Source: Chitinophagales bacterium
Lineage (GTDB): Bacteria > Bacteroidota > Bacteroidia > Chitinophagales > CAIOSU01
Direction: 5' to 3'
Length of the DNA: 64,000 nt
Assembly: GCA_026003335.1 (NCBI GenBank)
Contig: BPHB01000002.1
Location: 372,001-436,000, forward strand
The position numbers were made by a program, and so were the translations under genes. Below are positions 29,606-48,675 of this stretch, piece by piece. The notes below the pieces were generated by a model. The model did not search any database and was not told the DNA's origin. It worked only from the letters and a program-made list of their open reading frames with translations. Position 1 is the first letter of the stretch. Each line of letters opens with the position of its first letter.

Positions 29606-29624
29606 AAGCTAATGGCTAATGGCT
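29596..29624 (+). repeat. Right flank repeat of the four-helix-bundle insert
   Basis: TAACCGCTAAAAGCTAATGGCTAATGGCT contains two tandem GCTAATG units, the second of which supplies the ATG of the biotin carboxylase gene at 29619. Its end is the near inverted copy of the left flank (29205). Confidence 0.5.
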
Positions 29625-31599
29625 CATTCCATCACTAAAATATTAATCGCCAACCGCTCCGAGATCGCCATTCGCATCATGCGAACCTGCCGAAAGATGG
29701 GCATCGCAACAGTGGCTGTTTTTTCTGAGGCTGATAAGAATGCCCTTTTTGTAAAACACGCGGATGAAGGCATTGCCCTGGGCGGATATGCAGCAAGTGA
29801 CTCTTATTTGAATCAGGAAAAAATCATTGCCGCAGCAAAGCGCACCGGGGCAGACGCCATTCACCCGGGCTATGGGTTCCTGTCGGAAAACGAATCCTTC
29901 GCCAGGCGATGTGAGCAAGAAGGGATCCTGTTCATCGGCCCTAACTCCAAAGCCATTGAAGCCATGGGCGATAAAATACGGGCGAAAGAAATCATGCAAA
30001 AGCATGGGGTGCCGGTGGTGCCCGGCTATGACGGAGAAGATCAGTCCATGGAAACCCTCCGGAAAGAAGCAAAGAAAATCGGGTTTCCTGTTTTGCTGAA
30101 AGCCTCAGCCGGGGGCGGTGGCAAAGGCATGCGCATCGTGCGCGAGGAGAAAACGCTGGAAAAAGATATTGAAGGTGCCAAACGCGAGGCACTGAGCGCA
30201 TTCGGAGATGATACCTTACTGATTGAAAAATATTTTGACAGCGCACGACACATTGAGTTTCAAATTTTAGGCGACAAGCACGGCCAGGTGATACATCTCT
30301 TTGAGCGGGAATGCTCCATACAAAGACGCTATCAGAAAATCATAGAGGAATCGCCCAGCCCGGTGATGACCGATGCATTGCGCGAAAAGATGGCTGCAGC
30401 CGCCCTGAAAGCAGCCCAGGCAATTAAATATGACAATGCCGGAACTGTAGAGTTCATCGTGGACGATAAACTGCATTTTTATTTTCTGGAAGTGAACACC
30501 CGGCTTCAGGTGGAACATCCGGTAACCGAAATGGTCACCGGCCTGGATCTGGTGAAACTGCAGATTGAAGTTGCGCAGGGGCTGCCGCTTCCGCTCAGCC
30601 AAAATGACGTGAAGCAAAACGGCCATGCGGTGGAGTGCCGCCTCTATGCGGAAGATCCCTACAACCATTTTCTGCCGGCCACCGGAAAAGTGCTTGCCTA
30701 CCTTCCCGATGAAAGCGGTTGCACCCGCTACGACAGTGGTGTAGAAAACGGTTCGGTGATTGACATCCACTACGATCCGATGATCGCCAAGGTGATTACC
30801 TGGGGCAATACGCGCAGCGATGCCATCCGCAAGATGAAACATGCGCTGCGGAGAGACCGTCTTGCTGGGTGTTGTTACAAACAAAAACTTCCTCATTGAT
30901 ATTCTGGATCACCCGGATTTCACTTCAGGAAAATTCAGCACACATTTTATCCAACAACATCCGGAGCTCACAAGCCGTAAGGCGCCTGCTGAAAAAAGCC
31001 TCCATCACGCAGCCATAGCCGCCACACTCTGGATGTGGCATCAGCGGGAAACTGATAGGGTACTGTTAAAGCATCTTCCCTCTGGCTGGCGTAACAATTT
31101 TTATAAAATGCAGGAAGAAAAATTTGCGGTACAGGATCAGGAAATAACAGTACTTTACAGGAAGCTCTCAGAAGGTTTCCACATGAAAATTGCGGATAAA
31201 GAATATTTCGCTGAACTGTTTCAGGCAACAGGTAATCGTATTACCTGCGAAATGGAAGGCCATCGCAAAACTTTCATTATTGCGCAATCAGCGGAAACTC
31301 TTTTCATCCATGATGATGGAACGGGAAGCGTAATGCTGAAAATGCTCCCGCGCTTCCCCGAAGCAGAAGCCGAGAAAGTGAAAGGCGGCTATATTGCACC
31401 AATGCCGGGCGAAGTGGTGAAAGTGCTGGTGCAGCCCGGTGATAAGGTAAAGGCCGGAGACCCGCTGGTGATTCTCAGCTCGATGAAAATGGAAAATACC
31501 ATTGAAGCCCATGAAGAAGGCATAGTGGAAGAGGTTTATGTAGAGCCCAAACAATTTGTGGAAGCGGAAATGATGCTTGTTAAAATAAATTCAAAATAG
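29619..31599 (+). pseudogene. Biotin-dependent acyl-CoA carboxylase alpha subunit, broken by a 1-bp frameshift
   Basis: Two frames together encode a standard ~660-aa alpha subunit (biotin carboxylase, BT domain, biotin carrier). Frame 1 (29619-30899) has SITKILIANRSEIAIRIMRTC, HPGYGFLSEN, the ATP-grasp loop ASAGGGGKGMRIV and EVNTRLQVEHPVTEM, then turns to nonsense after KMKHALR. Frame 2 continues from ETVLLGVVTNKNFL (codon GAG at 30853) to 31599 and ends with the biotinyl domain; the target lysine in SSMKMEN is codon 31486-31488. One extra base near 30852 accounts for the break. It could be a true lesion or an assembly error; I cannot tell. If real, the enzyme loses its carrier domain. It pairs with the beta subunit upstream. 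Confidence 0.85.
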
Positions 31600-35336: not shown

Positions 35337-36158
35337 GTGATGAAGACCATTCAGGTTTTATCTGCCCGGCCGGATTCTTTTAAAACTTATCTGCTGAAGA
35401 TATGGCAAAACAGGGCTCTCATTACCACACTTGCCAAAAGAGACCTGAAAATTAAATACGCCCAGACTTTCTTCGGGGTGCTGTGGGTTATGCTCCACCC
35501 GCTACCCTCGGTAATTATTTTTACCTTTTTTTTTGATCGGCTGATACAGGTAGATACCGGTCCGCTGCCTTATCCGATTTTTGCCCTTATTGGCATGACG
35601 GGGTGGTATTTCTTTACTAATCTGGCTTTCGGGGCAGGCAATTCTCTCATTGAATCCCAACAGCTGTTAAAAAAGCTTGCCTTTCCGAAGCTGATCCTGC
35701 CCCTGTCTAAAGTGCTATCCACCGGGGTGGATTTTATTATGTCCTTCTTTATTACCATCCTGGCAATGTTCCTGTTTTCGGTATATCCGGGCTATACGGT
35801 AGTCTTTCTGCCGTTATTTATCCTGCTGAATATCTTTATAGGGCTGACGCTGGGAATATGGCTTTGTGCAGTATCGTTCCGCTATCGCGATGTGCACCAT
35901 TTTCTGCCCAACGTAGTGAATTTTCTGGTATGGCTCACCCCGGTTTTTTATCCTACTACTATTTTGCCGGAGAAGTTGCATTACCTGATGTACATCAATC
36001 CCATCGCTCTGGTGATTGAGGGGTATCGGTTTTCACTCACCGGCATGGCTTTGCCCTCACCCTGGTATGCCTTGTCAATGATTCCGGTGCTAATTTTATT
36101 TCTAGTAGGAATTACTTACTTTAGAAAAATTGAAGATAAAATCGTTGATTACATTTAA
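35337..36158 (+). CDS. ABC-2 type export permease (Wzm/TagG-like)
   Basis: A 273-aa integral membrane protein with about six transmembrane segments, of the ABC-2 family used for polysaccharide, O-antigen or teichoic-acid export. Features: ALITTLAKRDLKIKYAQTFFGVLWVMLHPL before TM1 (the amphipathic coupling region), GMTGWYFFTNLAFGAGNSLIE, and FLVWLTPVFYPTTILPE near residue 200, the usual Wzm signature. Its partner ATPase is not adjacent but lies at 47398, across the PhyH array. It starts a tight + strand unit to 42544, beginning 12 bp before the first PhyH gene. Substrate unknown. Confidence 0.85.
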   Translation: MMKTIQVLSARPDSFKTYLLKIWQNRALITTLAKRDLKIKYAQTFFGVLWVMLHPLPSVIIFTFFFDRLIQVDTGPLPYPIFALIGMTGWYFFTNLAFGAGNSLIESQQLLKKLAFPKLILPLSKVLSTGVDFIMSFFITILAMFLFSVYPGYTVVFLPLFILLNIFIGLTLGIWLCAVSFRYRDVHHFLPNVVNFLVWLTPVFYPTTILPEKLHYLMYINPIALVIEGYRFSLTGMALPSPWYALSMIPVLILFLVGITYFRKIEDKIVDYI

Positions 36159-36170
36159 ACACCCTCAGCC

Positions 36171-37019
36171 ATGAGAAATGTTTTTCGCAATCCTGACCTG
36201 CAAAAACAGTTCAATAAAACCGGGTATGTGGTTGTTGACCTGCTTTCTCCCTCTGAAGTAGATGAGTTATTGCATCTTTACGAAGCTATAGATGGCGTCA
36301 AGGGCACTTTGCGCACCAATAAGGATAACACCTACGAACTCAGCTTTTTTGAAAAGGATGTGCTTTCCAAGCGTAGAAAGTTTGATGCGATGTACAACTT
36401 CTTCAAACCTCATCTGGATCGCTTTCTGGACAATTACAAGCCCATTATCATCAACCTGTTTAACAAGCAGCAGGGCATAGGAGAAGTGCCGGTGCATCAG
36501 AACTGGACCTTTGTGGATGAACGGCAGTTTACTTCCGTTTCCGTGTGGTGTCCTTTGCAGGATGTAAGCCGAAAGAACGGCACGCTGGAAGTAGTGCCGG
36601 GTTCTCATAAGGTTATTTGTGATTATCGTGGTCCGTCCATACCCTGGGTCTTTGACAATCTGAGTGAGATTATGAAAGAAAAGTACATGGTGCCCCTTGA
36701 ACTACGAGCCGGGCAGGTGGGTATCATTGATGACGGTGTAATCCACTACTCAGGGAATAACCATACTTCGGATGACAGGCGCGCTGTTCAGCTTATTATG
36801 AAACCGGCCGAAGCACCTACCATTCATTGCTATAAAGACGAAGTCGATGACAATATCATCCACATCCTGGAAGTAGATGATGATTTTTTCTTTGACTTCA
36901 ATATGTGGGACAAACCCCGCGGAGGCAGAAAACTGAACTCAATTCGTTACCCTATAAAAAAACTAACGGAACAAGAACTGTTGGAACGCTGCAACCGCAA
37001 TCTGGCTGCAATGGTATGA
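36171..37019 (+). CDS. PhyH-like dioxygenase domain 1 with a substituted iron ligand (H-x-N)
   Basis: A 282-aa phytanoyl-CoA-dioxygenase-family protein (Fe(II)/2-oxoglutarate fold). The double-stranded beta-helix is clear: VSVWCPLQDVSRKNGTLEVVPGSH, LRAGQVGIIDDGVIHYSG and DRRAVQLIMKP. The usual first metal pair H-x-D reads His109-Gln-Asn111 (HQNW), so the Asp ligand is replaced by Asn; the distal His192 is present. The enzyme may have weak or no activity, or use another metal set. It starts MRNVFRNPDLQKQF-x-K-x-GYVVV, the same opening as its paralogs, and sits 12 bp after the permease. No substrate can be assigned. Confidence 0.85.
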   Translation: MRNVFRNPDLQKQFNKTGYVVVDLLSPSEVDELLHLYEAIDGVKGTLRTNKDNTYELSFFEKDVLSKRRKFDAMYNFFKPHLDRFLDNYKPIIINLFNKQQGIGEVPVHQNWTFVDERQFTSVSVWCPLQDVSRKNGTLEVVPGSHKVICDYRGPSIPWVFDNLSEIMKEKYMVPLELRAGQVGIIDDGVIHYSGNNHTSDDRRAVQLIMKPAEAPTIHCYKDEVDDNIIHILEVDDDFFFDFNMWDKPRGGRKLNSIRYPIKKLTEQELLERCNRNLAAMV

Positions 37020-37022
37020 TTT

Positions 37023-37859
37023 ATGCAAAATATTTTCAAAGACTCCTCTATCAATCAGGCGATTGAGAAAAACGGCTTTGCTGTAATACCTTTTATTGAC
37101 AGCCGTATCGCTGAGGAGCTCAAAAGATTTTACGCTTCCCTACCCGCTGCGCAGGGTGCCACCGGCACACATGTAACCATGTTTAATCCTTCTTCAGACT
37201 ATCGCAGGAAGGTGCATGAAAAAATTTCTGAACTATGCGGCAGTCGCGCTACCCAACTCACGCATGGCTATCGTGTGCTGTACACCAATTTTATGATAAA
37301 AGAACCGGGGCCGGAAGGAAACTTTCCGGTGCATCAGGACTGGACATACGTAGATGAAAAACAATATACTTCTATCGCCTTCTGGATACCTCTGCATGAC
37401 GTAGATGCGCGCAACGGGGCACTGCATGTGGTCAGAGGCAGTCATCATTTCCTGACTGCGTTACGCGGACCCTATGTGCATGAACCGTTTCAGCATCTGA
37501 GCGATGTGATTAAAAACCATTTCTCTGAACCGGTTAACCTCAAAGCCGGAGAAGCGCTGGTATGGGATCACCGGCTGATACACTTTTCCCTGCCTAACTT
37601 AACCAGCCAGCCTCGGTTGGCATTTACCCTGATAATGGTTCCGCAACAGGCTCCCGTGTGCCATTGCTACGGGCTGCCGGAATCACAGGGTACGTTGATT
37701 GAATTGTATGAAGTGGATACCGAGTTTTACATGCATTACACTATCGGCCAGCGTCCGCAGGGAGTAAAATTACTTACAACTATAAAACAGCCTGCATTGT
37801 CATTTACGCCCCAACAATTTGAAACAACCTACTTCAGATATAATCGCCCCGGATGCTGA
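37023..37859 (+). CDS. PhyH-like dioxygenase domain 2
   Basis: A 278-aa Fe(II)/2-oxoglutarate dioxygenase of the phytanoyl-CoA family. Ligands seen: His104 and Asp106 (HQDW) and His187 (RLIHFS), with the 2OG-binding basic residue probably in TSQPRLAFTLIMVP. Supporting strands: TSIAFWIPLHDVDARNGALHVVRGSH and LKAGEALVWDHRL. The gene follows the first paralog by 3 bp and is followed by the methyltransferase after 1 bp. Unlike paralog 1 all ligands are intact. Confidence 0.85.
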   Translation: MQNIFKDSSINQAIEKNGFAVIPFIDSRIAEELKRFYASLPAAQGATGTHVTMFNPSSDYRRKVHEKISELCGSRATQLTHGYRVLYTNFMIKEPGPEGNFPVHQDWTYVDEKQYTSIAFWIPLHDVDARNGALHVVRGSHHFLTALRGPYVHEPFQHLSDVIKNHFSEPVNLKAGEALVWDHRLIHFSLPNLTSQPRLAFTLIMVPQQAPVCHCYGLPESQGTLIELYEVDTEFYMHYTIGQRPQGVKLLTTIKQPALSFTPQQFETTYFRYNRPGC

Positions 37860-37860
37860 T

Positions 37861-38631
37861 ATGGCGGAGAACTACAAAAAGCAATCAGATAAAGTTGCTG
37901 CCTACTACGACCATTGGCAGCAAGGATATAATGAGGTTTATGGCAACTTTATTCAGGCTTTTCGCCCCTCGGATGTAGATGAGTTGATGCAATACATTGC
38001 CGCCAGCGCCCATATTCATGACGGCCTGAAAATTCTGGATGCCGGATGCGGTGTGGGTGGCCCGGCCATCTGGTTGGCTTCCCGCTTCAACATTGAAATA
38101 GCAGGTATCACAATTTCCGAAGTGCAGGTAAGCCAGGCTCAGGAGCACGTCAGACAGAGTGATTTGAGTGATAAAGTGTCTATTACCCAGGGTGACTATC
38201 ATGAGCTCTCCCGGCACTATCCGGCTATGTATTTTGACCGTGTTTTGTTTCTGGAATCTTTAGGGCATGCCGGAGACCCTGCCAGAGTGATTCGTGAAGC
38301 GTGGACTACACTCAAGCCGGGAGGCAGCATCTATATCAAAGATTTTTATTACAAAGAACCAGATGATGCATACTGGAGCACCCGAATCCGGAAAACCATG
38401 GAAAACATCAATCGGCTGTATGCATACAACTGCCTGAACCTAACCGAGATTATAACAGCACTGCGGAGAACGGGATTTGAAATTGACTTTATCCGGAAAT
38501 TTGCTTTTAAAGATGATATATCCGTTAGGCAGGAATTTGAAACCCGTTTCGGCATTGACATCTTTGGCGGAGAACCGGAGTTTTATCCTGCCGAATGGCT
38601 GGAAATAAAATGCATCAGACCACAATCATGA
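37861..38631 (+). CDS. SAM-dependent methyltransferase
   Basis: A 256-aa class I methyltransferase. The SAM loop is LDAGCGVGGPAIWLA (motif I) near residue 60, with ITISEVQVSQAQEHV, ITQGDYHEL and the FDRVLFLESLGHAGDP strand. LKPGGSIYIKDFYY is the post-motif. It resembles small-molecule and lipid methyltransferases (UbiE/cyclopropane type), but the acceptor is unknown. I chose the ATG at 37861, 1 bp after the PhyH stop, over a TTG at 37819. The 3' end overlaps the next gene by 4 bp (ATGA), so it is translationally coupled to the array. Confidence 0.88.
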   Translation: MAENYKKQSDKVAAYYDHWQQGYNEVYGNFIQAFRPSDVDELMQYIAASAHIHDGLKILDAGCGVGGPAIWLASRFNIEIAGITISEVQVSQAQEHVRQSDLSDKVSITQGDYHELSRHYPAMYFDRVLFLESLGHAGDPARVIREAWTTLKPGGSIYIKDFYYKEPDDAYWSTRIRKTMENINRLYAYNCLNLTEIITALRRTGFEIDFIRKFAFKDDISVRQEFETRFGIDIFGGEPEFYPAEWLEIKCIRPQS

Positions 38632-40268
38632 GTCAAACCGTTTTTTACGATGCAACCCTGCAGCAAATCTTTGAGCGGGAAGGGATTGTTTCTCTACCCC
38701 TTTTTAGTAAAGAGGAATTGGTTTACCTTCAGGAGATATACCAGCAAACCCTCCCTCCCTCCCACGGTCTTAGCTTTCACTCCACCATGTTTATTCCTGA
38801 TATGGATTACCGAAAAAAAACCGACCAGGTCCTCCGTTCCATCCTATCCGGCAAAATCAACCGCCTCCTTAAAGAGTATCGCTTGCTCTTCGCCAACTTT
38901 ATCACCAAGGAGGCTTCTCCCGACACTGCCGTAGGTATTCATCAGGACTGGAATTTCACCTCTCCCGAATACCTGTCGCTGAATATCTGGATACCCCTGG
39001 TAGATATTGATAAAAAAACCGGGCTTTTCTATGCCCTGAAGGGAAGTCACCACGTATTTTCCAACCTGCGCTATACACCCTATGAAACAGATGCCTATGC
39101 GGAACTGGAAAATTACATCCGGAAAAATGCCACACCCTTCCGCGTGCGGGCCGGTGAAGCATTGATTTACCATGGTGCCATGGTGCATTTTTCCGACCCC
39201 AATATATCAGGGCAGCCTCGCATAGCGGTGGGGTGCGCGCTTATACCCCAGTCGGCTCCCAATCTGCATTACTACCGCAGGCCACAAGACAAGAAAATTG
39301 AAATCTTTACAGTAGATGAATCCTTTTATCATAGTTTTAATTTCTTTGAAAGGCCTGCCCGAGCGGAAAAAACAGGTGAACTGAATGCATGTCCTGGTCT
39401 TCCTGCTCTGTCTGAATTAATTTCAAACCGTATGAGCTCCATGCGCAGAATATTCAGGAACGATGTGTTGGAAAGCGAAATTTCCCGCAAAGGATATGTG
39501 ATAATCCGCAACATGGTAGAGGAGCAGGTTTGTGATGACCTCTATCATTTTTTTGATCAGCATGACACGGTTGATCATCGCCCTTTTTCCATCACGAATT
39601 GGAGCAATAATGCCGCATATCGCAGTAAAACATTTCAGTACATTGCAGAAAAACTGCTGCCCGTAAGCCGGCAATATCTACTCAACTACCGGCCGGTGAT
39701 GGGTGTATTTACTGCCAAGCGCCCATCAGTAAAAAGTGACATGCTGCTGCATCAAGATTGGAGCCTTGTGGATGAAAGTGTATTTCGCTCAGTAAGCGTT
39801 TGGGTTGCCTTATGCGACATGAACAAGCGCAACGGCAACCTGCAGGTAGCCGAATACAGCCACCTGTATGCAGGCTTGCCGCGTGGAATGAACATCCCGG
39901 TGCCCTTTGAAGATCTGCGTCAGGAAATTCAAACTCATTTTTTGACAGACCTCCCACTCGCCAAAGGCGATGCTGTTGTTTTCGATCACCGCCTTATTCA
40001 TGCTTCACCGGAAAATCAAACCGAGCGTATCAGGCTGGCTGCGGTGTTGGCGTTGATTCCTTATGAAGCCGATTTGATTCATTATTACAAGTACGTGGAT
40101 AACGACCACGAGCTGGAAATTTTGAAAATGGATGAAGGGGCATTTCATCTGATTGACTTTTTTGATATGCCTAATAAGCCCCGCCATATAGAAGTTTTAA
40201 AGACTATTCCGGCTGAATTCGGGTCTATCACTAAAGAAGATATTCTTCAATACTATTCCCATGTATGA
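38628..40268 (+). CDS. Tandem two-domain PhyH-like dioxygenase
   Basis: A 546-aa fusion of two complete PhyH domains (paralogs 3 and 4). Domain 1 has His105-x-Asp107 (HQDW) and distal His in MVHFSDPN; domain 2 begins near Met272 with MRRIFRNDVLESEI-x-RKGYVII, the same opening as the stand-alone paralogs, and has His375-x-Asp377 (HQDW) and RLIHASPEN. The internal opening suggests that two neighbouring genes became one by loss of a stop codon. The start overlaps the methyltransferase stop by 4 bp, and its end overlaps the next gene by 4 bp. Substrate unknown; two active sites could act on two positions of one molecule (inference). Confidence 0.85.
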   Translation: MSQTVFYDATLQQIFEREGIVSLPLFSKEELVYLQEIYQQTLPPSHGLSFHSTMFIPDMDYRKKTDQVLRSILSGKINRLLKEYRLLFANFITKEASPDTAVGIHQDWNFTSPEYLSLNIWIPLVDIDKKTGLFYALKGSHHVFSNLRYTPYETDAYAELENYIRKNATPFRVRAGEALIYHGAMVHFSDPNISGQPRIAVGCALIPQSAPNLHYYRRPQDKKIEIFTVDESFYHSFNFFERPARAEKTGELNACPGLPALSELISNRMSSMRRIFRNDVLESEISRKGYVIIRNMVEEQVCDDLYHFFDQHDTVDHRPFSITNWSNNAAYRSKTFQYIAEKLLPVSRQYLLNYRPVMGVFTAKRPSVKSDMLLHQDWSLVDESVFRSVSVWVALCDMNKRNGNLQVAEYSHLYAGLPRGMNIPVPFEDLRQEIQTHFLTDLPLAKGDAVVFDHRLIHASPENQTERIRLAAVLALIPYEADLIHYYKYVDNDHELEILKMDEGAFHLIDFFDMPNKPRHIEVLKTIPAEFGSITKEDILQYYSHV

Positions 40269-41164
40269 AGTGGCTGCAATCCATATTACCCTCACGCAAG
40301 CCGTCTGGTGCGGAACGATTTGCATTTCCGTTTTTCCGCGATCGTACGATACAGCAGGAAATAGCGCAAAAAGGATTTTCAGTGCAGCCCCTTCTTTCGC
40401 TGGAAGAAGTGGAGCTTCTGCGACAGGATTTTTTCAGGCTGGTGGAAATGCTTCCAGAGCCACTGCCTGACAAGCACTGGACAAGCGGCCGCGTGGACGA
40501 TCCCGAAATCAGAAATTTTGCCCGTCAGGCTATTGAAAAAATCGTGCCCCGCAGACTGGAACAATACTTTGATCCTCGTATCACCGACTTTATCGGAGGC
40601 ATATTCCTGGCCAAAAAGCCTTCTCCGGTTAGTGAGTTAACTGCACATCAGGACAGCTCTCATACCGATGAAACCAGGTATCCGGCAGCCTATGCATGGA
40701 TTGCCCTCACCGATACCACGCCTGAAAACGGAGCTATGCATGTGTTGCCCGGCAGCCATTTATTTGGCAATCGCTTCCGCTCTTTGAACGTTCCCTGGCT
40801 GTACGCGGGGATGGAAGAACTCATGACCCCATATCTGGTTCCCGTTTCTATGAAGGCCGGTGAGGTTTTGTTTTTTGATAGTGCCGCCATCCATTATTCA
40901 TCCAATAATATGAGCAGTTACATACGTCCTGCAATCAACTATTTCATTAAACCCAAAGAGGCTCTTTTTCTCCATCATTACATAGATGAAAAAACGCCTG
41001 CCGGTTTTGTGGAAGTTTATCATGTAGATATTGATTTTTTTTACAATTGCGATTTTATGCAGCGCCCTCCCTGCCCGCCTTATCGTAAGCTGGGAATGGA
41101 GCCGGCTATTCCTCCCCTGCAAAAGGAGGATTTTAAAGTTTTATTAAGAAAATATTGCCGTTAA
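40265..41164 (+). CDS. PhyH-like dioxygenase domain 5
   Basis: A 299-aa PhyH-family protein with a longer N-terminal extension (about 20 residues) and an Asp/His site His128-x-Asp130 in AHQDSSHTDE, plus the strands AYAWIALTDTTPENGAMHVLPGSH and MKAGEVLFFDSAAIHYSSNN. The distal ligand lies in AAIHYS. It is more divergent from the others. The start overlaps the two-domain gene by 4 bp and its stop abuts the arylsulfotransferase GTG, so the whole unit is coupled. Confidence 0.83.
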   Translation: MKWLQSILPSRKPSGAERFAFPFFRDRTIQQEIAQKGFSVQPLLSLEEVELLRQDFFRLVEMLPEPLPDKHWTSGRVDDPEIRNFARQAIEKIVPRRLEQYFDPRITDFIGGIFLAKKPSPVSELTAHQDSSHTDETRYPAAYAWIALTDTTPENGAMHVLPGSHLFGNRFRSLNVPWLYAGMEELMTPYLVPVSMKAGEVLFFDSAAIHYSSNNMSSYIRPAINYFIKPKEALFLHHYIDEKTPAGFVEVYHVDIDFFYNCDFMQRPPCPPYRKLGMEPAIPPLQKEDFKVLLRKYCR

Positions 41165-42544
41165 GTGCAGCACATAAATAAAGCATTGAGTATTGCCGTC
41201 TGCCTGGGCTTTTCTTTTACCATGACAGGGCAGGCCCCTTTTTTCGTACCCAATAAAGACCTATCGTTGACTTCTGAATGGAGCAATCTGGAGGGATACT
41301 ACTTCCTCTCACCGGTTCAAATCACCCCGGTTATCTCCACCAGCTCCCATCTGGTCATTCTGGACGATGATTTGAATGTAGTATTCTATAAGGCTTTTCC
41401 CCGTCCGAAAAATCACAGCGGCATCGGGGGCGTATCTATGGATTTCAAAATACACAAAAACGGGCTGATGTCTTTCTATCATCATGATGGGCAGCAGGGT
41501 GCATTTTACCTCATGGACAGCACCTTTCGGATCGTGGATACCCTGACCTGCATCAATAAATTCACAGATTCACACGGATTGCAGATTCTGAAAGACGGAT
41601 CTTATTACCTCCTCTGCAATGATTCCCGCTACGCGGATTTAAGCAATAGTAAGTATTTCAATACACGGAAGATGAGTACACGGACAGAAGTAAGGGGCAC
41701 CGGCTCAGTAATTCAACACATCAGCAAAAACAAAAAGCTGCTTTTTGAATGGAATGCCTTTGACCACTGCCGGTATGAGGATGAAATACTGGTTTATGTA
41801 GATAACGACACCATGATAGACTGGGGGCACGGCAACAACATTACCATAACCGATGACGGTAATTTACTGCTCACCTTGCGCAATTTCTGGCAGGTATTGA
41901 AGATTTCACGAAAAGACGGATCTGTGCTTTGGCGGCTGGGAGGGAACAGAAGTGATTTTACCTTCATCAATGACAGTGCCGGATTCAATCATCAACATGA
42001 TGCTGAGTTGCGCGGCAATCTGCTGTCGGTTTTTGATAACGGAAAATATCACAATCCTCCTCTTGCAAGGGCACTCATTTACAAACTGGATTTTAATCAC
42101 AAAACCGCTGAAAAAGTTTACGAATACAAACACCATTTTCATTACAGCTCTGACGCTCAGGGTAGTTTTCAGCTTTTGCCCAATGGGTATAAACTCATAT
42201 CCTGGGGTAAGGGCAATGATCAGCTCCTATTTGATATCACACAGCTTGACCGGAATGATTCCATTATGTTTGAACTGGATCTCGGCCGCAACTATCAGAC
42301 TTTCCGGGCCTTTTATGGTGATATTCCCTGGGAACTGAAACGTCCGGTCATCACCTGTTTTAAAAAAGATGGAAAGATTTACCTGGATGCCGGACCCGGT
42401 TACAAAGAATACATCTGGTCTAATGGTGAAAAGACGCGGATTATTGAAGCACAAGAGGGGCACAGGTATCAGGTCTTCGTCAATCAGGGGATTGGACTTA
42501 TAGGCTCCCGAGTGATCAATCCTTCATTGAAATGCAACTTATAG
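41165..42544 (+). CDS. Arylsulfotransferase-like secreted protein (ASST family)
   Basis: A 459-aa protein starting at a GTG abutting the previous stop, with signal peptide residues 1-22 (ends FTMTGQA). The rest is a beta-propeller-like chain with DSHGLQILKDGSYYLLCND, WGHGNNITITDDGNLLLTLRN, VLWRLGGNRSDFTF, GFNHQHDAELRGN and FQLLPNGYKLISWGKGN, the pattern of arylsulfotransferase (PF05935/PF14269-like) proteins. Family enzymes move sulfate from phenolic sulfate donors to acceptors in the periplasm, with a catalytic His; which His this is I cannot say. It ends in overlap with the convergent PAPS-type sulfotransferase gene (42539). It closes the + strand unit. Confidence 0.72.
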   Translation: MQHINKALSIAVCLGFSFTMTGQAPFFVPNKDLSLTSEWSNLEGYYFLSPVQITPVISTSSHLVILDDDLNVVFYKAFPRPKNHSGIGGVSMDFKIHKNGLMSFYHHDGQQGAFYLMDSTFRIVDTLTCINKFTDSHGLQILKDGSYYLLCNDSRYADLSNSKYFNTRKMSTRTEVRGTGSVIQHISKNKKLLFEWNAFDHCRYEDEILVYVDNDTMIDWGHGNNITITDDGNLLLTLRNFWQVLKISRKDGSVLWRLGGNRSDFTFINDSAGFNHQHDAELRGNLLSVFDNGKYHNPPLARALIYKLDFNHKTAEKVYEYKHHFHYSSDAQGSFQLLPNGYKLISWGKGNDQLLFDITQLDRNDSIMFELDLGRNYQTFRAFYGDIPWELKRPVITCFKKDGKIYLDAGPGYKEYIWSNGEKTRIIEAQEGHRYQVFVNQGIGLIGSRVINPSLKCNL

Positions 42545-43591
42545 TCTATCGGGTGTCGCAAGCAGTTCCATCTGTGTCTGCAAGCTTTTTATAAAGTCCT
42601 GCCGCGGCTTCAGATGAGCCAGCTCTTCGGGAGTAGCCCTTTTCCAGGCCTCTCTCTTAAGACGGTTATTTTCCTCTTCAAAAGCCAGCAACTCACTGAT
42701 TGAAAATCCTGCCTGTGGCACTGCCTCTGCCGTTTCCCCAAGATTATTATAACCAAGCCTGAGCAGCATATCACCGGCTTCCCCTTCAAAGATGGCCACT
42801 TCTTCATTTGTAAGACGGTCATGATATTTACCCGTATTGTTTTTTATAATCGGACGAGACACATTTTCCCACATTCTTCCGGCTAAAGCAGTCTTCCTGG
42901 ATTCAGGAGATTTATAATAGGCTAAGACCGATTTGTCAAACGCAACTCCTGTTTTTTCACATATCTCACGAATGTATTTTTCCGGCTCCTTTATGAAATC
43001 TTCATACCGGATGATGCTAAAGGCCCCGGAAGGAAGTTTTTGAAGAAATAGGAGCGCCAGTTCCTGCTCTATTTTCCATTTGTTTGCCAGAAAGTAGATG
43101 TGCTTATCTCCTATAAGAATATTTCTGAATGAAGCGGCCACATCACGTCCATCGCGATAGAGGTATATAAAAAAGGGACGGTGTCCCTCCCGTTCAAAAT
43201 GATGCAAATGATAAACGGTTTCCATGCTCTTGCAGCACCACACTTTTTTCCGGCTTTTTTCACACTGCAACTCATACGTGCGGATAAAAACCTCCAGCAA
43301 AGACCGGTGCCGGCAACGGTGCATAATGGTATCCCGCTCCAGTGGCAGGTTATCCCAAGGCACAGGATTTAGTTCCACCAATCGGCAGACATCCTCCACC
43401 AGCCTGGTAAAATTTTTATCCTCTTGCAGATTGCCATAGATTTTCAATAGCGGATAAAACGTGTGCAGGATATGGGGAGGATGAGGCGCAAAGACTTCCG
43501 GCAGCTGATTCAGCATCACACGCAACAGATTGCTGCCGGAACGCTGCGTTCCGATAAACTGTATGGCATGAAAATGAGGTTGTGTTTGCAG
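42539..43591 (-). CDS. PAPS-type sulfotransferase, 5' end uncertain
   Basis: A cytosolic sulfotransferase-domain protein. The 5'-phosphosulfate-binding loop FIGTQRSGSNLLRVML lies upstream of every in-frame ATG or GTG: the first ATG (43525) and GTG (43528) follow it. In-frame, only a CTG at 43591 (after a TAA at 43606-43604) is available, and I use it as the outer limit. An ATG at 43569 is out of frame by one base; one more T in the following TTT run would give MPYSFIGTQRSG, a normal start. The second signature YLYRDGRDVAASF (3'-phosphate binding) is near the middle. It transfers sulfate from PAPS to an unknown acceptor. It is the last gene of the reverse unit with three PhyH genes. Confidence 0.75.
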   Translation of the reverse strand: MQTQPHFHAIQFIGTQRSGSNLLRVMLNQLPEVFAPHPPHILHTFYPLLKIYGNLQEDKNFTRLVEDVCRLVELNPVPWDNLPLERDTIMHRCRHRSLLEVFIRTYELQCEKSRKKVWCCKSMETVYHLHHFEREGHRPFFIYLYRDGRDVAASFRNILIGDKHIYFLANKWKIEQELALLFLQKLPSGAFSIIRYEDFIKEPEKYIREICEKTGVAFDKSVLAYYKSPESRKTALAGRMWENVSRPIIKNNTGKYHDRLTNEEVAIFEGEAGDMLLRLGYNNLGETAEAVPQAGFSISELLAFEEENNRLKREAWKRATPEELAHLKPRQDFIKSLQTQMELLATPDRL

Positions 43592-43673: not shown

Positions 43674-44462
43674 TTATTGCTTCAGGGATGGTGCAATGCC
43701 GGCAAGCTGTTCGCTGCTCAAGGTGGCTACCACTTTTCCTTCTGGTCTTTTACCCAGTTGAAAACGCTGATAGTATGCATCATCCAGTTCAATAATCTCC
43801 ACCCTATCATCTTTCATGTAATAAAACCATACGGGGGCCTCCTGAGGCAACAAAACAGAAACGGCTGCAATGCGAGGCTGCCCGGACAAGTTGTCTCCGG
43901 AAGCGTGCAGCAAGGCATGACTGAAAAACAAAGCCTGTCCGGCCTTCATGCCTATAGTACGCATTTTGCCCAGCAAATACGCTTCCTGTCCGGCAAAGGG
44001 TTTGGGTATGGTTGGACTACGGGGAACCTTATATTCAAGATGGCTACCTTCCAGAACTTTCATAGCACCATTATGCTCATCCACGTCTGTGAGCGGTATC
44101 CAAACCGAAAGAGAAACGAACTGTGATTCATCGGTAAAGGTATCGTCCTGATGTACAGGCCAACTGCTTGCGGGCGCACTGTTTTTCACTGCAAAACAAT
44201 TGATCAGCGTTTTACAGTCAACCAGCATGGTTTGTATCTTCGGGAAAAGCACCGGCTGCAGCAACTGATGTATCTGTCTGCGTAGCTCTACATTCTGATT
44301 ATCCCAGAGGGTGAGATAAAATCCCCGTGAGCGCTTATCTCCGTATTGCTCATAAATGGCTTTCAGTTGCTCCACCTCACCGCTACTCAGAAAGGAAGTA
44401 ACTACATAACCGTATTTGCGGAAATGCTCCTCGTAAAGTTTGTTGTGGAAAATTTTTCTCAT
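43674..44462 (-). CDS. PhyH-like dioxygenase domain 6
   Basis: A 262-aa PhyH-family protein with His104-x-Asp106 in HQDDTF, LSVWIPLTDVDEHNGAMKVLEGSH, MKAGQALFFSHALLHASGDN and the IAAVSVLLPQEAP strand. It opens MRKIFHNKLYEEHFRKYGYVV, the family start. Its start overlaps the end of the next paralog by 4 bp. It is part of the reverse unit of three PhyH genes and the sulfotransferase. Confidence 0.85.
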   Translation of the reverse strand: MRKIFHNKLYEEHFRKYGYVVTSFLSSGEVEQLKAIYEQYGDKRSRGFYLTLWDNQNVELRRQIHQLLQPVLFPKIQTMLVDCKTLINCFAVKNSAPASSWPVHQDDTFTDESQFVSLSVWIPLTDVDEHNGAMKVLEGSHLEYKVPRSPTIPKPFAGQEAYLLGKMRTIGMKAGQALFFSHALLHASGDNLSGQPRIAAVSVLLPQEAPVWFYYMKDDRVEIIELDDAYYQRFQLGKRPEGKVVATLSSEQLAGIAPSLKQ

Positions 44463-45277
44463 TGCACTTGCAGATATGACAATAATTCTTCTTCGCTGAT
44501 GGGTCGCGGTATGTATTTTCTTATTCCCTTGCTGGGGTATCCTTCAGGGCGCTGATGCTTGCTAAAACTGAGCCAGAAATCCACATTTACTTCAAACTCT
44601 TCAAATTCACCAGGCGCAAGACCGGGATAATGAAAATAGGCAATGGGTGTTGCCTCACGGGGAATAATGCCGCTGATGACAGCCGGCCGTTCCTTACCGG
44701 ATACATTAGGCAAGGAATTGTGAATCAGACGTGGGTCATAAATGAGTGCTTCTCCTGCCCGCATCGGACACACCATCATTTTAGGACCATATACATGCCG
44801 GAAATCCCAGAAACGATAAGGAATACCAAACCCCCGGTAGGGATTGGGTATTTTATGACTTCCTGGCAACACACGGACGGCTCCGTTGACCTCATCGGTG
44901 TCAACCAATGGAGACCAGATATTTACCGAAGTGTATAGTGATTCATCTACCAGACAATCGTCTGTATGATCGTAAATGGTACTGTCAGGGCCGGTTTTAA
45001 CTATGAATGTTGCGGCAAGCGAGATATAATCTACAAATAACTCCTCAACAGGACGTTTGAAAAAGCCCTTTAGAAAAGTATCCGCTTGTGCACGATACTC
45101 CACATCGCGGCAATCAATGGAGGAATAAAAATCGCGTGTAGACTCGCGAGGCTTCACCGCATCATAAAAGGCACGCATGGCTTTTACCTCTTCGGCAGAA
45201 AAGAGGGGCAGGATAAAATATCCCTGCTTCAGAAAAAGCTCCTGCAAGGCTGCATCTTTAAAAATGGGTCTGTTCAT
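44459..45277 (-). CDS. PhyH-like dioxygenase domain 7
   Basis: A 272-aa paralog with His104-x-Asp106 in DHTDDCLVDE (HTD rather than HQD), TSVNIWSPLVDTDEVNGAVRVLPGSH and MRAGEALIYDPRLIHNSLPN. I chose the ATG at 45277 because MNRPIFKD is aligned with the openings of the other paralogs; an alternative ATG at 45295 would add six residues. It overlaps the upstream paralog by 20 bp. Confidence 0.83.
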   Translation of the reverse strand: MNRPIFKDAALQELFLKQGYFILPLFSAEEVKAMRAFYDAVKPRESTRDFYSSIDCRDVEYRAQADTFLKGFFKRPVEELFVDYISLAATFIVKTGPDSTIYDHTDDCLVDESLYTSVNIWSPLVDTDEVNGAVRVLPGSHKIPNPYRGFGIPYRFWDFRHVYGPKMMVCPMRAGEALIYDPRLIHNSLPNVSGKERPAVISGIIPREATPIAYFHYPGLAPGEFEEFEVNVDFWLSFSKHQRPEGYPSKGIRKYIPRPISEEELLSYLQVQ

Positions 45278-46094
45278 ATTGCTTTTTGTAGTCATTCAGA
45301 CGTGCAATGAGCTCTTGCCCGGTAATCTGTGTAGCAGCTGGCGGAATTTCTCCCACCTTTCTGTATTTTTCAATACTATCGCCAAAAGCAAATTCTTCCA
45401 GAAAGTGGTCATCGGCTTCATATCGGCTAATGATACCGGTTTGCTCATCACGAAAGTAATGAATCATGCGGGCTTCCTCCGGTATCAATACGATGCCGGC
45501 TGCCACCCTCACCTGTGCAGAGAGATTGTCACCCGAAGCGTGAAACAAACGATGGTCAAACGCCACCGCGTCTCCTGCCTTCATTTCCAGAGGCGTAAGG
45601 TATGCATTGGGAATTTCTCCCACGCCAGTGCCAATATTAGAGCCCCGGATATTACCGGATACGCGATGTGAACCGGCCACCACGCTCATACATCCATTGT
45701 GCTGTGATACATCACACAGCGCGCACCAGATAGTGATGCCCACAAAACGATCTTCGTCAATCAACGTCCAGTCCTGATGTATTTTAAATGCACTGCCTCT
45801 GCAGGGTTGTTTAATCAGATAGTGACCGTAAACTGACTTGTATCCCGTTATGAGCGTAGCAGCCGAAGGGTAAAGCAGCCGCTGCAAATACTCGCTTGTT
45901 TTTTTCCGGAAGTTATAATCTTTGCTCCAGTGCGAAGTAAAAAAGGGCTCATTTACCCCTGCTTCCGGGGCTACAGATTCATAAAAAGCCAGAGCCTGAC
46001 GCACGCTCCCGGCATCTAAAAAGCCTGGAATCACCACATACCCCAGCTTCCTGAATGCTTCATCTCTAGCGATGTCTGTAAATATGCGATTCAC
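45258..46094 (-). CDS. PhyH-like dioxygenase domain 8
   Basis: A 278-aa paralog and first gene of the reverse unit. His106-x-Asp108 (HQDW), VGITIWCALCDVSQHNGCMSVVAGSH, LEMKAGDAVAFDHRLFHASGDN. It opens MNRIFTDIARDEAFRKLGYVV. The 160-bp region upstream separates it from the divergent acyltransferase; this region may hold both promoters, though neither is a clean match to consensus. Confidence 0.85.
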   Translation of the reverse strand: MNRIFTDIARDEAFRKLGYVVIPGFLDAGSVRQALAFYESVAPEAGVNEPFFTSHWSKDYNFRKKTSEYLQRLLYPSAATLITGYKSVYGHYLIKQPCRGSAFKIHQDWTLIDEDRFVGITIWCALCDVSQHNGCMSVVAGSHRVSGNIRGSNIGTGVGEIPNAYLTPLEMKAGDAVAFDHRLFHASGDNLSAQVRVAAGIVLIPEEARMIHYFRDEQTGIISRYEADDHFLEEFAFGDSIEKYRKVGEIPPAATQITGQELIARLNDYKKQYEQTHF

Positions 46095-47397: not shown

Positions 47398-48675
47398 ATG
47401 GATCAACCAATTGTAATTGTAGAGGGGCTCTCCAAGGTCTACCGAATTACAGGCAAACAGTCGGGCAGTATTTTCTCCGAAAAGCTAACCGAGGTAAAGG
47501 CCGTGCACGATGTTTCATTTGAGCTTAAAGAAGGCGAAATATGCGGGCTGATAGGGAAAAACGGAGCCGGCAAAACTACGCTGCTGGAAATGCTCAGCGG
47601 CATTGTCAAGCCCAGTGCAGGCAGAATTACATTCAAAGGCAAGGTGGCTTCAGTAATTGATATCGGAACCGGTATGCACCAGGATCTTACCGGCATTGAA
47701 AATATCTATCTTGCCGGAAACCTGCTGGGCTACAGCAATAAAGAAATAAAAGAAAGACTACCCGACATCATTGCCTTCAGCGAGCTGGGCGATTTTATCA
47801 AACGGCCGGTGAAATATTACTCCAGCGGCATGTTTATCAGACTTGCATTTTCAACCTTGACGCATCTGGAGGCAGATATTCTGCTCATTGATGAAATTAT
47901 CGGAGTGGGCGATATTGCCTTTTCAGAGAAAGCGCTTAAACGTATCATGGACATCTGCCGCAAAGGAAAAACCGCGCTCATTGCCAGCCATAGTATCTCT
48001 TTTATCACCTCCAGCTGTAACACCGCCATGTACATGCACCAGGGCAAACTTATAGACAAGGGCCCGGTTTCGGAAATCATTGAACAATATGTTGAGCAGA
48101 TATTGCAGGAAACTTCCTTTTCTCCGGGAATAATATCTCCTCCTCAATCATCATCGGCATCAGCATTACAACCACGGGTAAAAGACATCAGGCATTCGAA
48201 AAACTATCAAAACCCTGATCAGGCTTTTAACAATGGCATCCGCCTGATAAAGGCTGAAATATCCAGCCCCGACAGCCAGGAGGAAGAATTTACCATGGAA
48301 AATACGCTCATCCTCTACCTGGAAACGGAAATAGATCTGGAGGAAGAAGTCATTATGTCGGTGCATTTTAATTACAACTATAATCAACCAGGCCTATGTC
48401 TTTCGCCTCTGTATAGCAAACAGCCCTTTGTTCCTCTTAAAGGGAAAGGACACTATCGGTTCCAGACCACCATACCCAGCGGAATCATGAATGCAGGCCT
48501 TTATACGATTTCTGTCTTTTTTGCCAGCTTGCAGCACGAACTTTTAAGTCAATACAAAAACATTATTGTCTTTAAAATCAGGCTTCCGCATGCTATGGAG
48601 GCCAACAACTATTATGAAGGAGGATTTGCCGGCCCTGTATTTCTGAAGACACACTGGCAAATGACTTCCTGCTGA
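47398..48675 (+). CDS. Wzt-like ABC-transporter ATPase with C-terminal binding domain
   Basis: A 425-aa ABC ATPase of the polysaccharide/O-antigen exporter type. Walker A GKNGAGKT at residues 53-60, signature SSGMFIRL near 142-149, Walker B ILLIDEIIGVGD, and SHS in the switch loop. The C-terminal ~150 residues (after ~260) form an extra beta-rich domain (LYLETEIDLEEEVIMSVHFNY, FQTTIPSGIMNAGLYTISVFF) like the substrate-selecting Wzt domain. Its permease is likely the one at 35337, separated by the PhyH array. It would energise export of a decorated glycan or lipid. Confidence 0.9.
   Translation: MDQPIVIVEGLSKVYRITGKQSGSIFSEKLTEVKAVHDVSFELKEGEICGLIGKNGAGKTTLLEMLSGIVKPSAGRITFKGKVASVIDIGTGMHQDLTGIENIYLAGNLLGYSNKEIKERLPDIIAFSELGDFIKRPVKYYSSGMFIRLAFSTLTHLEADILLIDEIIGVGDIAFSEKALKRIMDICRKGKTALIASHSISFITSSCNTAMYMHQGKLIDKGPVSEIIEQYVEQILQETSFSPGIISPPQSSSASALQPRVKDIRHSKNYQNPDQAFNNGIRLIKAEISSPDSQEEEFTMENTLILYLETEIDLEEEVIMSVHFNYNYNQPGLCLSPLYSKQPFVPLKGKGHYRFQTTIPSGIMNAGLYTISVFFASLQHELLSQYKNIIVFKIRLPHAMEANNYYEGGFAGPVFLKTHWQMTSC

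Follow-up and report, generated by a model that had tools for sequence, protein, structure and literature searches.

A conserved H-x-N clade of PhyH-type oxygenases in Bacteroidota with a candidate second-shell aspartate

The PhyH array and its first gene

The window, i.e. the whole stretch of 64,000 nucleotides from a Chitinophagales bacterium analysed here (contig BPHB01000002.1, positions 372,001 to 436,000), harbors eight PhyH domains, and one more is found on another contig of the same genome. Within the window, the array of PhyH genes is bracketed by an ABC-2 permease (35337) and an ABC ATPase (47398):

35337..36158, + strand: ABC-2 permease, Wzm/KpsM-like (PF01061; nearest NCBIfam model galactan Wzm, below cut-off), directly upstream of the H-x-N gene
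36171..37019, + strand: PhyH-type oxygenase of 282 aa with the H-x-N motif, first of the array's PhyH genes
37023..37859, + strand: PhyH, HQD
37819..38631, + strand: SAM-dependent methyltransferase (PF13847, PF08241; family F1, present in 25 loci)
38595..40268, + strand: tandem PhyH with two HQD domains
40265..41164, + strand: PhyH, HQD
43674..44462, - strand: PhyH, HQD
44459..45295, - strand: PhyH, HTD
45258..46094, - strand: PhyH, HQD
47398..48675, + strand: ABC ATPase, Wzt/TagH-like, with an extra C-terminal domain (PF00005; nearest NCBIfam model galactan Wzt, below cut-off; family F2)

Genes of the array overlap at stop and start (ATGA) or by tens of bases (37819-38631, 40265, 44459-44462), suggesting translational coupling. 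The array also includes, at 41165-43525, genes for an arylsulfotransferase-like protein (PF14269) and for a sulfotransferase (PF13469), which hint at a sulfated product and are not conserved in the majority of the other loci. Elsewhere in the window (29619-31599, + strand) the alpha subunit of a biotin-dependent carboxylase seems to be split into a 426-aa biotin carboxylase ORF and a 252-aa ORF, which overlaps the former in a different frame and ends in the biotinyl-like motif SSMKMENT; the translations point to either a frameshift or an indel of the sequencing, near 30841-30899.

PF05721 is the only Pfam family reported for the protein encoded at 36171-37019 (84.9 bits, cut-off 22), placing it among the PhyH/DSBH domain proteins. 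Codon 111 of this open reading frame is AAC (36501-36503), which bears out the original observation of an H-x-N motif in the first PhyH paralog, and the accompanying statement that all other domains of the array read H-Q/T-D holds as well, with HQD or HTD in the window's seven remaining PhyH domains. The full H-x-D...H iron triad is therefore replaced by H109-x-N111...H192, and an arginine, R203, is found at the 2OG-binding position about 11 residues past the distal histidine. The residues of interest are:

36495..36503, + strand: H109-Q110-N111 (CAT CAG AAC), proximal iron motif, Asn replacing Asp; Asn in 63/63 members of the clade described below
36732..36734, + strand: Asp188, distal His minus 4, proposed second-shell carboxylate; conserved in the clade, at the offset of AspH D721
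36744..36746, + strand: His192, distal iron ligand; invariant, aligned with the distal His of human PHYH (2A1X)
36777..36779, + strand: Arg203, 2OG-binding Arg position; Arg in 62/62 assessable H-x-N domains, aligned with the PHYH Arg in 2A1X

The AlphaFold2 model of the window protein, calculated from a 47-row alignment, has a pLDDT of 91.3 and a pTM of 0.90. In this model one strand ends at residue 187 and the next starts at His192, so that residue 188 is predicted to lie in the turn that precedes the distal histidine. The closest solved folds among the matches listed (VIA) are SnoK as the best (Z 18.8), SnoN, PHYHD1 and EvdO2. With the PhyH family (PF05721: PHYH, PHYHD1, SnoK, SnoN, EvdO2, HygX) the clade shares the fold, the two histidines, the arginine and the order of the motifs, whereas it differs in having Asn for the ligand Asp and an Asp four residues before the distal histidine.

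A single H-x-N clade, its conservation and its genomic setting

When 40 related genomes were searched with the whole protein, thus without any requirement for H-x-N, the 11 best matches (39-45% identity, well above the paralogs with at most 33%) all turned out to be H-x-N proteins (HQN or HEN). Two patterns run against 84,980 species genomes yielded 62 loci, nearly all of them in Bacteroidota metagenome-assembled genomes, with one labelled Lysobacterales and one Verrucomicrobia. The PhyH domains gathered from 62 public contigs plus about 20 genomes of a sample amount, after de-duplication, to 344 distinct ones, of which 63 are H-x-N, 280 are H-x-D and one is N-x-D; 63/344 is not an unbiased frequency because one of the two scan patterns itself demanded H[QE]N. 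The H-x-N group is rare, and no further genome with a match at E < 1e-50 was found in a 395-genome sample of the phylum. Nothing relevant on an H-x-N motif in 2OG enzymes was found in the openly accessible literature.

In a tree computed with columns 111 and 188 left out, the Asn state at position 111 maps to a single change, with all 63 H-x-N domains in one clade (support 99) and no H-x-N outside of it among the 344 PhyH domains. Close orthologs, nearly all from Bacteroidota and with 35-45% identity to the window protein, account for 62 of the 63; the remaining one, L025, is a divergent basal paralog (31% identity) inside the same clade. L025, with HQNL and D188 (14669-15547 of L121, G033:C49:73001-93000), is a second H-x-N PhyH of its genome and belongs to a separate cluster containing PhyH. 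The distant relatives on plasmids of Nostoc, Oscillatoria and Methylomagnum have H-x-D.

A sequencing error or the decay of an Asp codon, for which one G-to-A change (GAC to AAC) would suffice, is to be regarded as a negligible prospect, given Asn in 63 of 63 clade members, open frames and purifying selection. In particular, a base error at codon 111, which had been named as a possible refutation, is excluded by the orthologs sharing Asn; in the ortholog alignment proposed along with it, Asn111 is invariant in the first 12 sequences (38-45% identical to the window protein). Deamidation of Asn111 to Asp was put aside as well, the residue being followed by Trp; N-W is an unfavoured site for Asn deamidation.

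The H-x-N domain has dN/dS values of about 0.03-0.07 (pairs with dS below about 1.2), similar to its H-x-D neighbours, and in a comparison of five PhyH classes across one shared set of 22 loci, the H-x-N class ranks first in mean pairwise identity (0.651 versus 0.643, 0.600, 0.585 and 0.461). The clade is under strongly purifying selection, and a decaying pseudogene is ruled out by the dN/dS values together with this conservation rank. His109, His192 and Arg203 are retained wherever they are covered, while Trp126 and Ser194 are invariant or almost so. These His, Arg, Trp and Ser positions align to those of human PHYH (2A1X), which binds 2OG through such residues. The earlier suggestion that the protein may be inactive is not favoured in view of the retained iron histidines, 2OG arginine and Trp/Ser pair, the purifying selection and a new Asp placed as in AspH (see below).

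Upstream of the H-x-N gene, a same-strand ABC-2 permease is the nearest gene other than PhyH in 40 of 60 loci, and downstream the next gene is another PhyH in 51 of 56. The genes are commonly arranged as permease, H-x-N, tandem PhyH (c3=c1), more PhyH, methyltransferase and ABC ATPase. Among named models, TIGR04324 (sporadic carbohydrate cluster 2OG-Fe(II) oxygenase) comes closest for two of the H-x-D neighbours, with which a carbohydrate setting would be shared, but their scores stay below its cut-off (best 44 versus 150) and the H-x-N protein has no match. Similar tools occur outside Bacteroidota on the plasmids of Nostoc, Methylomagnum and Oscillatoria (L219, L220, L221), with PhyH domains fused to glycosyltransferases, as on the Nostoc plasmid, or to methyltransferase-UbiA, and with a set of Wzm/Wzt-type transporter, methyltransferase and PhyH; the Methylomagnum plasmid carries a permease, an ATPase with a Wzt_C domain, a methyltransferase and a PhyH gene, the latter being an H-x-D relative. 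Because of the genomic setting of the array and these plasmid relatives, we infer a glycan or lipid-linked glycan as substrate.

The same neighbourhood bears on the main rival explanation, in which the H-x-N protein would be a non-catalytic partner, i.e. would not turn over 2OG and would join an H-x-D neighbour as a subunit for structure or for substrate binding, in the manner of TlxI with TlxJ. In L071, L073 and L089 the H-x-N domain is indeed fused to a class c1 H-x-D domain, and its gene nearly always adjoins other PhyH genes. The TlxI-TlxJ heterodimer is likewise a pair of 2OG oxygenase homologs, in some cases fused, of which one is atypical. TlxI has, however, lost the 2OG-binding Arg, whereas Arg203 is retained in the H-x-N clade together with both histidines and the gained Asp188, an invariance that would not be expected of a dead subunit. 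The AlphaFold2 model of the fused L089 protein, with a pTM of 0.52, does not depict a confident packing of the H-x-N against the H-x-D domain and is uninformative on their docking. The structural partnership with the neighbours that had been considered originally is conceivable in view of the three fusions; overall we regard the non-catalytic role as unlikely.

Asp188 and the comparison with AspH

Position 188 is Asp in all 62 H-x-N domains covering it. Among the 281 other domains Gln (102), His (80) and Asn (59) prevail, while Asp (2) and Glu (1) are exceptional, so that an acid is present in 3 of 280 H-x-D domains; the two with Asp at this position still keep Asp111. None of the seven solved H-x-D PhyH proteins aligned there (SnoK, SnoN, EvdO2, AviO1, PHYHD1, MysH and PHYH) has an acid four residues before the distal histidine. 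The loss of the first-shell acid in the clade is thus accompanied by a new acid at one fixed position. A Fisher test of acid at 188 against the motif gives p ~1e-65 with the relatedness of the sequences ignored, and as H-x-N arose once, common descent instead of function may be what links N111 to D188.

Further clade-specific positions are Y55, F59, N95, Q207 and I209, and therefore the whole pocket is altered. A repurposed metal site, binding another metal or catalyzing a non-oxidative or redox-neutral reaction such as an isomerization, would be in line with such a rebuilt pocket and with the presence of the epimerase SnoN and the carbocyclase SnoK among the nearest folds listed; with the 2OG-binding residues retained, this alternative is considered improbable.

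Human AspH provides a precedent for an iron site of this kind. Although its H-x-G motif offers no carboxylate ligand, this hydroxylase is active (PMC13168262). The site of the missing Asp is occupied by an iron-bound water molecule, W1, which is held by the second-shell residue D721, and the D721A variant is much less active (PMC13168262). According to the sequence of the AspH PDB entry, D721 belongs to the segment IFDDSFEH ending with H725 and is therefore located at distal His minus 4, the very offset of Asp188. The corresponding consensus of the H-x-N clade, ILDDSIVH, is a similar string with the Asp four residues before the distal histidine as well. The H-x-N clade and the H-x-G proteins of the AspH family (PF05118) have in common that the motif provides no first-shell carboxylate, and the clade carries the acid at distal His minus 4 that would be expected of an AspH-like site lacking its ligand carboxylate. 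On the other hand, AspH belongs to another family, PF05118 not being reported for the window protein, and its Gly leaves room for a water molecule where the H-x-N clade has Asn. AspH is absent among the 50 VIA matches listed, which excludes nothing.

The association was also found within PF05118 itself, in 83 proteins from genomes of the phylum Bacteroidota (loci L122-L206). Asp or Glu is present at distal His minus 4 in 53 of 56 H-x-G members, leaving three without an acid, and in none of the 27 H-x-D members (Fisher test, p ~1e-18, with relatedness ignored and possibly few independent events). Two PF05118 genes in divergent orientation, both H-x-G with Asp at minus 4, are located in the genome of the window, about 33 kb past its end (G000:C2:468762-470072).

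Loss of the ligand Asp is known from 2OG halogenases as well (PMC12346261, PMC8252765), and the SyrB2/CytC3-type enzymes share with the H-x-N clade both this loss and the PhyH fold, to which SyrB2 belongs. The Asn might accordingly open the iron site to an anion such as chloride, the part that Ala or Gly plays in SyrB2-type enzymes, making the protein a halogenase or pseudo-halogenase. Contrary to the H-x-A/H-x-G motif of the halogenases, however, the window protein has Asn, whose side chain is larger than that of Ala or Gly and occupies the site, and a halide would be repelled by the carboxylate of the invariant Asp188, which argues against halogenase use. For AspH, it has been argued that the water on D721 hinders halide binding (PMC13168262). 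The window protein scores 20.1 with the chlorinating-enzyme model TIGR01762 (cut-off 226.3), and no protein above this cut-off was found in the 395 Bacteroidota-phylum genomes. A halogenase function is thus very improbable.

The proposed iron site and its implications

Judged from the residue patterns and the analogy to AspH, the clade probably represents an iron site that has been rebuilt and still works, and neither an error nor a dead gene. On balance we favour an active Fe(II)/2OG oxygenase in which the ligand carboxylate has shifted to the second shell. Asp188 would supply, one shell further out, the negative charge that usually contacts the iron itself, and would form a hydrogen bond either to Asn111, which in turn would bind iron via its amide oxygen, or to a water ligand of the iron, in the manner of D721 in AspH. 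This contact between residues 111 and 188 is suggested by the sequence offset and the AspH analogy. His109, His192 and Arg203 would still hold iron and 2OG, so that the first shell would be altered and more neutral while the oxygenase still works. More tentatively, with slightly less confidence than doubt, a natural 2-His-1-Asn iron site is conceivable, with the neutral Asn or an Asn-held water binding the iron and the carboxylate at minus 4 in the second shell.

In collagen prolyl 4-hydroxylase, Glu was the only replacement of the Asp ligand found to keep activity, D414A, D414G and D414H being inactive (PMC2767507). Because such uncompensated ligand changes are often fatal, the coupled Asp188 matters for the proposed oxygenase. 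As for its role, the operon context suggests that the H-x-N enzyme would oxidise a sugar, a lipid-linked glycan or a nucleotide-sugar bound for the Wzm/Wzt-type ABC exporter, acting together with the H-x-D PhyH enzymes and the methyltransferase.

2OG oxygenases are routinely judged as active or dead by the H-x-D/E...H triad, which the H-x-N subfamily breaks in a conserved manner, and the second change of the clade mirrors the AspH site of an unrelated branch. If the proposed arrangement is true, an acid at distal His minus 4 would be a sequence rule marking functional acid-less 2OG oxygenases, which together with AspH would separate working acid-less oxygenases from halogenases and dead copies. 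If confirmed, the clade would allow the influence of ligand charge on 2OG chemistry to be tested in a natural system. The locus itself points to an undescribed, PhyH-rich glycan-export operon across uncultured Bacteroidota.
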